From Sediminibacillus dalangtanensis (GTDB lineage Bacteria > Bacillota > Bacilli > Bacillales > Amphibacillaceae): DNA of 64,000 bases. Position 1 is the first letter of the stretch; each line of letters begins with the position of its first letter. This document shows, piece after piece, positions 4,858 to 59,341 of the stretch. The translations under genes were made by a program, and so were the position numbers. Under the pieces are notes generated by a model that was not told the origin of the DNA, searched no databases, and was given only the letters and a program-made list of their open reading frames with translations. The DNA lies in NCBI RefSeq assembly GCF_017792025.1, contig NZ_CP046956.1, forward strand, positions 2,046,001-2,110,000. Direction: 5' to 3'.

Positions 4858-5081
4858 GGACAAAAGCGCAAGCGCCTGTTTAAAGGAGTACAGGCTAGAG
4901 CCGTCACGTCCTGTGGCAACGCCTGCATGACCCACATCGTGTGCTTAAGAACAGCCTCGGCGTGGCGCTTTTTGCCACACAGAGGATGGGCTTAAGACCT
5001 CGAGGGGGTAGGCGCTGGAGCTGGACGTGGCTGTTTCAGCCAATAATGATCCACAGACAGTTAAATTTAACATTTCCTATA
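4858..5081 (+). repeat. Dispersed repeat family A, copy 1
   Basis: A 224-bp element starting GGACAAAAGCGCAAGCGCC and ending near ATCCACAGACAG plus an AT-rich tail. Its parts can pair: an outer AAGCGCC with GGCGCT; CCTGT...ACAGG; a long arm bounded by CTTAAG on both sides with GCCTC/GAGG and GTGGC/GCCAC inside; and TGGCTG..CAGCCA. Further copies lie at 28440, 33528, 40694 and 46585, with a composite at 21119. It occupies most of the 448-base gap between the convergent ypjC and yugP. Confidence 0.9.
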
Positions 5082-28439: not shown

Positions 28440-28675
28440 GGACAAAAGCGCAAGCGCCTGTTTAAAGGAGTACAGGCTAAAGCCGCCACGTCCTGTGGCA
28501 ACGCCTGCATGACCCACATCGTTTGGGCCTCCGACAAGCTTAAGAACAGCCTCGGCGTGGCGCTTTTTGCCACACAGAGGGTGGGCTTAAGACCTCGAGG
28601 GGGTAGGCGCTGGAGCTGGACGTGGCTGGTTAGGCCAATAATGATCCACAGTCAATTAAATTTATAATTTTCTAT
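28440..28675 (+). repeat. Dispersed repeat family A, copy 3 (full length)
   Basis: Full-length copy with all stems of copy 1, including the GGGCCTCCGACAAGCTTAAG segment shared with copies at 33528, 40694 and 46585. Lies in the 508-base gap between yphE and spoVIF, next to the spoVIF terminator. Confidence 0.9.
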
Positions 28676-33527: not shown

Positions 33528-33760
33528 GAACAAAAGCGCAAGCGCCTGTTTAAAGGAGTACAGGCTAGAGCCGCCACGTCCTGTAACGCCTGCATGACCC
33601 ACATCGTTTGGGCCTCCGACAAGCTTAAGAACAGCCTCGGCGTGACGCTTTTTGCCACACAGAGGGTGGGCTTAAGACCTCGAGGGGGTAGGCGCTGGAG
33701 CTGGACGTGGCTGTTTCATCCAATAATGATCCACAGACAGTTAAATTTATCATTTCCTAC
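33528..33760 (+). repeat. Dispersed repeat family A, copy 4
   Basis: Nearly full copy. It lacks the bases TGGC after CACGTCCTG and so has lost the GCCAC/GTGGC stem. It lies in the 499-base gap between yphA and fni, directly next to a family B hairpin. Confidence 0.9.
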
Positions 33761-40693: not shown

Positions 40694-40928
40694 GGACAAA
40701 AGCGCAAGCGCCTGTTTAAAGGAGTACAGGCTAAAGCCGCCACGTCCTGTGGCAACGCCTGCATGACCCACATCGTTCGGGCCTCCTATAAGCTTAAGAA
40801 CAGCCTCGGCGTGGCGCTTTTTGCCACACAGAGGGTGGGCTTAAGACCTCGAGGGGGTAGGCGCTGGAGCTGGACGTGGCTGTTTCAGCCATAATGATCC
40901 ACAGACAGTCAAATTTATCATTTCCTAT
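40694..40928 (+). repeat. Dispersed repeat family A, copy 5
   Basis: Full-length copy in the 530-base gap between sleB and prsW; TCCTATAAGC replaces TCCGACAAGC. A 12-bp tandem repeat and the prsW terminator follow directly. Confidence 0.9.
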
Positions 40929-46584: not shown

Positions 46585-46770
46585 GGACAAAAGCCCAAGC
46601 GCCTGTTTAAAGGAGTACAGGCTAAAGCCGCCACGTCCTGGGGCAACTCCTGCATGACCCACATCGTTTGGGCCTCCGACAAGCTTAAGACCTCGAGGGG
46701 GTAGGCGCTGAGCTGGACGTGGCTGGTTCAGCCAATAATGATCCACAGACAGTTAAATTTATCATTTCCT
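46585..46770 (+). repeat. Dispersed repeat family A, copy 6 (internal deletion)
   Basis: Same element as the other copies but missing 47 bases: the arm between the two CTTAAG hexamers is gone and one CTTAAG remains. Ends AGTTAAATTTATCATTTCCT. The surrounding 506-base gap between ddl and ypbH has nothing else but the ypbH terminator. Confidence 0.9.
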
Positions 46771-57868: not shown

Positions 57869-57937
57869 ATGAAGGAACATTTTTGTCAATCGCTTCTATT
57901 ATAACTTTATTTATTGCTTTCTTTTAGGGGTAAACCA

Positions 57938-57970
57938 AAAAAATACCAGCTATTTACTAGCTGGTATTTT
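57938..57970 (-). terminator. Terminator of the B12 cassette, overlapping the stop codon
   Basis: AAATACCAGCTA pairs with TAGCTGGTATTT; the stop codon of the ECF component (57950-57952) lies within it. T runs on both strands. Confidence 0.85.
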
Positions 57971-58471
57971 TCCATATTCTGAATTACGGAGATATTTTGT
58001 GAAAATCCTGGAGAATACCGGGAACAAAATCGCCATAAAAATTCCGTTGCCTACTGCATGATAAGTATCAAACGGCAAACCCAAAAGGTAATAGGAAAGA
58101 AAATTCCCCGCCACTGAGAAGGTTGCCAATGACACAATCAGTCCGTAAAGATAGCCGCACATAACGGCAAAAACAATCATCACCGGCAGCGGAATATCCC
58201 TCCAGTATTTCCCGATCAATCCGCTCATCAACCCGATTAATGCCCAGCCAACTATTTGCCAGATAGTCCAAAGCCCCATACCGAGGAATAAATTGGAAAG
58301 ATAAGTAGTCAATCCAGCAAGCAATACTCCGGATAGAGGACCTAAAAAGAAACCACAAATAATGATCAAGGCAGTCACCGGCTGTACATTGGGAAGAAAC
58401 TGAAAGGTATATCTGCCCACGACAGCCAAAGCTGCGAGAACTGCAATTAGAGTGAGTTTATAGGTATTCAC
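57950..58471 (-). CDS. ECF transporter S component, probably corrinoid-specific
   Basis: 173 residues with five to six membrane helices and the ECF S-component pattern (N-terminal LAALAVVGRYTFQFLPNVQPVT, then ALIIICGFFLGPLSGVLLAG). Such proteins bind a vitamin and dock with a shared EcfAAT energising module, which is not in this window. GTG start at 58471, five bases after the DUF4430 gene. The B12 riboswitch upstream makes cobalamin or a precursor the likely ligand; B. subtilis has nothing like this here. Confidence 0.85.
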   Translation of the reverse strand: MNTYKLTLIAVLAALAVVGRYTFQFLPNVQPVTALIIICGFFLGPLSGVLLAGLTTYLSNLFLGMGLWTIWQIVGWALIGLMSGLIGKYWRDIPLPVMIVFAVMCGYLYGLIVSLATFSVAGNFLSYYLLGLPFDTYHAVGNGIFMAILFPVFSRIFTKYLRNSEYGKIPASK

Positions 58472-58476
58472 TCATA

Positions 58477-58893
58477 TCATTCCATGGCATGCAAATCGAA
58501 CGTGACTTCATCTTCCGGGCTTAGTTCATACTCGTTTGCACCAACCTCGGCCATTTCTCCATTGACGGTGTACATCCAGTATTTCCCTTCCTCTTCGTTT
58601 TGACTGACACCTTCGATGGAAGTAATAAAGCCATCCGCTTCTTCTACTTCGAAGTTTTCTTTCATCACATCAAGTAAAATAGCCCCTTCTTCGATTTCAA
58701 CTTCTTTTTCAGTGATGACATTTTCCCCTTCATCCTCTGAAATGGTGACCATCACCGCTTCTTGACTTTCTGATTCACCGGATTGCTCCGTTGTTTCCGC
58801 CGTCTCATTGTTCGACGAATCCTGCTCCGCACAGCCGGTCACGATACCAGCGGCAAATAACAAACTTAATAACGCGAATAAAAACTTCTTCAT
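58477..58893 (-). CDS. DUF4430 (transcobalamin-like) lipoprotein
   Basis: 138 residues with a lipoprotein signal (LLFAAGIVTGC, acylated Cys near 20), an acidic Ser/Glu linker, and a C-terminal DUF4430 domain (ILLDVMKENFEVEEADGFITSIEGV, KYWMYTVNGE). DUF4430 resembles the C-terminal domain of transcobalamin and intrinsic factor, so a corrinoid-capture role is likely. The ATG at 58893 has GGAGG nine bases upstream; the TTG at 58902 lies right against it. First gene after the B12 riboswitch. Confidence 0.85.
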   Translation of the reverse strand: MKKFLFALLSLLFAAGIVTGCAEQDSSNNETAETTEQSGESESQEAVMVTISEDEGENVITEKEVEIEEGAILLDVMKENFEVEEADGFITSIEGVSQNEEEGKYWMYTVNGEMAEVGANEYELSPEDEVTFDLHAME

Positions 58894-58949
58894 TTCTTCC
58901 AACCTCCCAATTATAATTTTCAGGGACAGGAAAAGTGCTATTTATGTAC

Positions 58950-58983
58950 AAAAATAAAAGCTTATCCTCTGAGAAGATAAGCT
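58950..58983 (-). terminator. Riboswitch expression-platform terminator
   Basis: Minus strand: AGCTTATC, nine-base loop, GATAAGCT, then TTTATTTTTG. It stands between the B12 aptamer and the DUF4430 gene, where premature termination would switch expression off. Confidence 0.8.
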
Positions 58984-59049
58984 AAAGAGACAAACCAGCT
59001 GTAATGGATGACAAACCACACACCGGCAGTCTCAAACACTCAATCCCCG

Positions 59050-59242
59050 AAGGTTTGAAACAGGCAACAACGGCAGGTCTACTGGCTCGTACATCTTTCT
59101 ACTTAGGAACCTTCCCATGACTAAAAGCTCACAGTGGTTTTTCCTTTTCGTCCGTACTTACAGTTGCGAGGACAGCTCTGGTTTTTCACCAGATTCCCTT
59201 TTCAGCCTGCCAGACGGCAAAACCGACTGAAAGGCACCGCAG
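59050..59242 (-). promoter_or_regulatory. Cobalamin (AdoCbl) riboswitch aptamer
   Basis: On the minus strand the conserved blocks occur in order: GGTGCC near the 5' end, GGGAATCTGGTGAAAAACCAG, GCTGTCCTCGCAACTGTAA, a variable arm with CACTGTGAGC and CATGGGAAGG, and the B12 box AGCCAGTAGACCTGCC (59072-59087). A hairpin and T run follow. The rest of the gap up to resE has no other feature. Confidence 0.93.
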
Positions 59243-59341
59243 TATTCTATTTGATTTCCAGAAATCATTTTATCATAGTTCCCTATAATTAGGAAGTTGT
59301 AATGTTACATAAGGAACAAGATTATTCCTCAAGTTTAACGA

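Follow-up and report, generated by a model that had tools for sequence, protein, structure and literature searches.

Bacterial uptake of vitamin B12 outside Escherichia coli is described as poorly understood in the passages of PMC5997447 used here, which report the closest characterized counterpart of the system studied below, the energy-coupling factor (ECF) transporter ECF-CbrT of Lactobacillus delbrueckii (structure 6FNP). According to these passages CbrT had been predicted by Rodionov et al. in 2009, works with a shared ECF module, has nrdJ as its B12 user and lies in a cluster, nrdJ-cbrS-cbrT-pduO, whose cbrS may or may not encode a protein with DUF4430, labeled in Pfam as a domain of unknown function. 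A second related group is the transcobalamin-like clade of SLBB domains, which passages of Burroughs et al. (2007, PMC1796856) place in surface proteins of Gram-positive bacteria, some of which carry an alpha/alpha toroid and one of which is named from Oceanobacillus iheyensis, and for which they predict B12 scavenging together with CbiO/CbiQ-like genes. Here an operon of Sediminibacillus dalangtanensis is described that, unlike the L. delbrueckii cluster, pairs, downstream of a B12 riboswitch, a DUF4430 lipoprotein with a CbrT-family S component, and the two gene families are found to be tied nearly one-to-one in sampled Bacilli. The operon lies in a 64,000-nt stretch of contig NZ_CP046956.1 (positions 2,046,001 to 2,110,000 of the forward strand; hereafter the window, to which coordinates without a prefix refer), within a source genome that is a single contig of 4.10 Mb. 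It is read on the minus strand in the order aptamer, leader terminator hairpin, Shine-Dalgarno sequence, DUF4430 lipoprotein gene, CbrT-like S gene and terminator:

59055..59256, minus strand: cobalamin riboswitch aptamer (RF00174; 116.3 bits against a gathering cut-off of 31.5; full-length match, model positions 1-189 of 189)
58959..58983, minus strand: intrinsic terminator hairpin in the leader, likely the expression platform (11-pair stem, then TTTATTTTTG; fold -13.0 kcal/mol; terminator-like hairpins in related leaders)
58903..58908, minus strand: ribosome-binding site GGGAGG of the lipoprotein gene (read from the sequence)
58477..58893, minus strand: DUF4430 lipoprotein gene, ATG at 58893 and end at 58477, 138 aa, putative lipid-attachment Cys21 (PF14478, E 1.7e-25; Cys21 invariant; AlphaFold2 model)
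58489..58686, minus strand: DUF4430 domain, residues 70-135, predicted transcobalamin-like beta-grasp (Pfam match and predicted fold)
57950..58471, minus strand: CbrT-family ECF S component gene, GTG start at 58471, 173 aa (phmmer, profile search, structure model)
57937..57973, minus strand: end terminator overlapping the last S-gene codons (16-pair stem, -20.2 kcal/mol)

As a whole this arrangement confirms the initial annotation, which had proposed a well-formed cobalamin riboswitch with its own terminator, followed by a lipoprotein gene, an S gene coupled to it by five bases (measured here from the stop at 58477 to the GTG at 58471) and an overlapping terminator. The coordinates given at that time, 58477-59242, omit the entire S component and cut the aptamer short by its first 14 nt. 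The interpretation offered with them is supported for the riboswitch, the transcobalamin-like domain and the B12-type S component, and is not supported where the unit was called self-contained, since no ATPase or EcfT is present among the genes of the operon and an ECF module would have to be borrowed.

The PF14478 match (89.7 bits, cut-off 23.8) was the sole Pfam match above cut-off in the lipoprotein, with no BtuF-type or periplasmic-binding-protein domain, and a BtuF-type lipoprotein was rejected on this ground. Neither the protein (138 aa, DUF4430 only) nor its operon contains an alpha/alpha toroid. Its nearest named relatives are those of Sediminibacillus halophilus and S. terrae (91%). 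Cys21 is invariant across 34 aligned sequences, the window's protein included, and the lipoprotein is probably lipid-anchored. From residue 51 onward each block of the AlphaFold2 model has a mean predicted local distance difference test score (pLDDT) above 90, and the model shows helix H73-80 followed by strands E83-86 and E89-93. Comparison of predicted folds supported the transcobalamin-like C-terminal domain proposed earlier; as modeled, the fold matches that of a domain known to bind corrinoids. The isolated human transcobalamin beta domain (TC-beta) binds cyanocobalamin (CNCbl) as well as cobinamide, and by analogy the lipoprotein may bind a corrinoid.

The S component matched PF12822 (E 4.7e-12) and gave a structure model with a pLDDT of 91.6. 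Among Protein Data Bank (PDB) sequences phmmer returned 6fnp_A, that is CbrT (E 5.5e-19), and in a profile search CbrT (E 1.7e-41) was the only strong match. CbrT is thus its nearest characterized relative in the PDB, and clustering by sequence with riboflavin, thiamine or queuosine transporters, which would have spoken against a B12-type S component, was not seen; a riboflavin or folate S component was rejected on the same profile result. On this kinship the protein is predicted to be specific for B12. The S gene lacks its own EcfAA'T and the module is found elsewhere in the genome, which is the group II ECF layout; two ABC (ATP-binding cassette) genes, a CbiQ/EcfT gene and a pseudouridine-synthase gene are clustered at C1:40 kb of the source genome, and this S component presumably uses that module. 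A second EcfT gene and a fused two-domain ECF ATPase gene were observed at C1:3.236 Mb (L098 1366-3628).

Conservation of the pair was followed in loci of named species, in related genomes and across Bacilli. In all 15 loci from named species the S gene lies just downstream of the lipoprotein gene and a B12 riboswitch just upstream of it, 14 of these matching RF00174 (one weakly, at 36.7 bits) and one RF01482. Of 15 related leaders, 14 carry a terminator-like hairpin between the aptamer and the gene, compared with 49 of 600 shuffled leaders. The related-genome sample (61 genomes searched, 41 with DUF4430) yielded 29 loci (L024-L052), of which at least four (L025, L026, L027 and L044) appear to come from the very contigs of named-species loci; a B12 riboswitch was present in 19, and an S gene lay inside the fetched stretch (up to 3.2 kb) in 26, with none in that stretch in L033, L039 and L052. 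The S gene of L034 is broken into two frames. Spacing between lipoprotein and S gene ranged from -26 to +14 bases in 40 of the 41 pairs measured, the exception being L038, where the S gene is on the other side.

Across 398 Bacilli genomes DUF4430 was detected in 141 and the CbrT profile in 146. After nine CbrT genomes with a best E-value above 1e-7 were set aside, DUF4430 was present in every one of the 137 that were left, and the four DUF4430 genomes without CbrT all match DUF4430 only weakly (E 3.4e-4 to 5.6e-4). Genus-level tallies were 50/146 for each family; the Fisher value for co-occurrence, 2e-103, should not be read as a probability, because the genomes are related and do not count independently. 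Among the matches listed, both gene places were available for 111 genomes, the remaining 26 standing outside the count, and in 109 of these both genes occur on one contig and the same strand within 15 kb, spaced by less than 300 bases in 43 and with DUF4430 first in 88 and the S gene first in 21. The unlinked genomes are G197, with the genes on different contigs, and G151, in which they are far apart and the CbrT gene lies tail-to-tail with queG (L096 1962-3661, L095 3069-3476). QueG is a queuosine-synthesis enzyme thought to need cobalamin. No DUF4430-CbrT fusion was seen by eye among the listed open-frame lengths of the survey, which was the only search made for one.

Unusual copies of the pair were also observed. 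In Virgibacillus senegalensis (L007 6001-8236) the lipoprotein gene is a tandem duplicate encoding identical proteins, each copy is followed by an S gene of equal score, and one riboswitch was scored in the locus. In the small genome G088 (L082 965-4742) CbrT-like and DUF4430 genes stand in reversed order after ctsR and a Clp-type ATPase gene, and no B12 riboswitch was found in the 8.5-kb stretch.

Nine larger operons (L083, L084, L085, L086, L088, L089, L092, L093 and L094) bring together large surface proteins, a DUF4430 protein, a protein in the EcfT position, a long ATPase and a CbrT-like protein. In Pfam scans covering some of their proteins, families of the alpha/alpha-toroid type (squalene-hopene cyclase or prenyltransferase) scored above cut-off in L083, L084, L085, L086, L089 and L094, only narrowly in L086, and below it in L088 and L093; none was found in the one L092 protein scanned. 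L083 and L084 each have toroid and DUF4430 above cut-off within one protein, both with S-layer domains, and ATPases with two ABC domains each. The EcfT-position protein of L084 matches CbiQ (E 1.1e-12), and that of L083 matches no Pfam family. When L083, L084, L085, L086, L089 and L094 were scanned for riboswitches, a B12 riboswitch was found upstream of the first gene in five of the six. Toroid and DUF4430 are the two domains that make up transcobalamin, and their combination is the strongest contextual argument for corrinoid handling by the DUF4430 protein beside CbrT. The window operon is the minimal form, with one beta domain, one S component and a shared motor.

The source genome encodes an adenosylcobalamin (AdoCbl)-dependent NrdJ (586.7 bits), a PduO-type adenosyltransferase and QueG; searches of it for CbiC and for the MetH activation domain (Met_synt_B12) gave no match. 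The operon riboswitch is one of two cobalamin riboswitches in the genome. The other (L003 5485-5678; C1:243484) precedes the alpha and beta genes of a B12-independent ribonucleotide reductase (L003 5930-9242), and the NrdJ gene lies elsewhere. These features fit an organism that uses B12 and would switch between two reductases according to its supply.

Taken together, the pair probably constitutes a B12-repressed corrinoid uptake operon in which the lipoprotein, CbrT and a shared ECF module act jointly. When coenzyme B12 is scarce, RNA polymerase would read past the leader terminator and both genes would be expressed. The CbrT-type S component would be the B12 receptor in the membrane and, with an EcfA-EcfA-EcfT module encoded elsewhere, would import B12 or cobinamide; the imported corrinoid would pass by way of the adenosyltransferase to NrdJ, and would also supply QueG. 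The lipoprotein would be a membrane-tethered counterpart of the transcobalamin beta domain, most likely binding the corrinoid at the cell's surface and presenting it to, or clamping it onto, outward-facing CbrT. The analysis itself establishes the parts, their family ties, their conserved linkage and the predicted folds, whereas the sign and ligand of the riboswitch, the B12 specificity of this CbrT, corrinoid binding by the lipoprotein and its hand-off to CbrT are inferred. In vertebrate carriers two domains close around one B12, and assembly of the human transcobalamin alpha and beta domains is reported to depend on B12. A more specific and tentative proposal, which we consider possible without favoring it, is a split transcobalamin at the membrane, with B12 sandwiched between the lipid-anchored beta domain and CbrT in the toroid's place and then toppled inwards, the larger operons adding toroid capture stages.

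Several observations weigh against the uptake operon as proposed. Passages of PMC5997447 report that purified L. delbrueckii ECF-CbrT binds and transports B12, with an affinity in the BtuF range, and mention no lipoprotein; a capture step is therefore not obligatory for CbrT in general, and the lipoprotein may have another role. By sequence alone, it resembles transcobalamin-1 only weakly (E 0.034). For the S-component model, 6FNP fell outside the Foldseek best 50, and fold comparison placed 20 other rows above it, including FolT, RibU and ThiT, from which the modeled fold alone does not tell CbrT. In 20 further loci (L053-L072), 13 of them from one family (f59) and all with 1.5-kb flanks too short for long operons, a B12 riboswitch lay near DUF4430 in only one; at least one of the loci outside f59, L066, has a riboswitch further upstream, as seen in L094 from the same genome. 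B12 riboswitches occur in 275 of the 398 Bacilli genomes, far more commonly than the pair, and most must therefore serve other genes. In a physiology sample of 31 genomes, 26 with the pair and five without, the PduO-type adenosyltransferase was absent from 8 of the 26 and present in all five pairless genomes. CbiC was present in 6 of the 26, so that genomes with the pathway can carry the pair too, and in one of the five. Given both distributions, ligand or need may differ in some lineages. QueG was considered as an explanation for pair genomes lacking the adenosyltransferase and rejected, since its presence in all 31 genomes, the five pairless ones included, gives a need for B12 but no discrimination.

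The activity of the purified complex would also suit an account in which CbrT and the shared ECF module do all the transport and the lipoprotein is a surface B12 store, or a chaperone or lid stabilizing outward-facing CbrT. The separation of the genes in G151 points the same way, as does the reversed order in 21 of the 109 linked genomes, which leaves the linkage tight yet silent on order of action; against a lipoprotein with the fold of a domain that binds CNCbl in isolation, we judge this account unlikely. Passages of PMC5997447 state that CbrT carries cobinamide too, TC-beta binds it likewise, and passages of PMC1796856 speak of B12 or precursors, all of which would agree with import of another corrinoid or precursor (cobinamide, pseudo-B12) in place of B12, the riboswitch only reporting cofactor sufficiency; this we consider rather improbable. 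An S component for riboflavin, folate or another vitamin, with an incidental riboswitch link, would account for a match to the riboflavin family PF07155 (E 9.8e-9) and for a model that 6FNP resembles less closely than do FolT, RibU and other S components. Since only CbrT is strong by sequence profile and the riboswitch is kept in 15/15 related loci, that explanation is very improbable, and the fold score itself may be lowered because 6FNP is an apo, toppled structure at 3.4 A.

The pair is flanked upstream by genes for a ResE-like kinase and a ResD-like regulator and downstream by a SigX-like sigma factor (sigma-70 region 2 protein), which we take to be resE, resD and sigX by analogy with B. 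subtilis. The position between resE and sigX given in the initial annotation fits these flanks, and the recent insertion it implied was rejected because relatives keep the same position: of the 15 named-species loci, 13 have ResE upstream and 7 have SigX downstream inside the fetched stretch. Absence of the unit from B. subtilis was upheld by a DUF4430 search of that control genome, which gave no match. Elsewhere in the window, five copies of the Bacillaceae-1 RNA (RF01690) lie on the plus strand within 42 kb (4879-4943, 28461-28527, 33549-33612, 40715-40781 and 46606-46672).

Among open-licence papers no report linking DUF4430 to CbrT or to a B12 riboswitch was found, and passages of PMC4350170, PMC6593275, PMC12075633, PMC11477304 and PMC2667541 do not contain the pairing. 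Within that literature the near one-to-one linkage, its B12-riboswitch control and a beta-domain lipoprotein that stands alone next to an S component using a shared ECF module appear to be new. The linkage makes DUF4430 a testable partner of a purified and crystallized B12 transporter and gives a case in which a bacterial relative of vertebrate B12 carriers would operate alongside a transporter. It also bears on the proposal, in passages of PMC1796856, that animals acquired their B12 carrier proteins from Gram-positive bacteria.

Compared with ECF-CbrT, the operon has the same S family by sequence, a shared ECF module and NrdJ as a B12 user. With the SLBB clade it shares, as far as passages of PMC1796856 describe it, the DUF4430-type beta-grasp with a hairpin after the helix; that paper ties the clade to CbiO/CbiQ genes, names no S component for it in those passages, and its main text does not use the words 'ECF', 'riboswitch' or 'lipoprotein'. 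Transcobalamin, intrinsic factor and haptocorrin of vertebrates have an alpha/alpha toroid, whereas the operon has none, its beta domain is probably lipid-anchored, and its neighbor is a transporter subunit rather than an endocytic receptor. As proposed here it would resemble BtuFCD in pairing a surface binding protein with ATP-driven corrinoid import, and it differs in a lipoprotein without a BtuF-type domain and a transporter of the ECF type.
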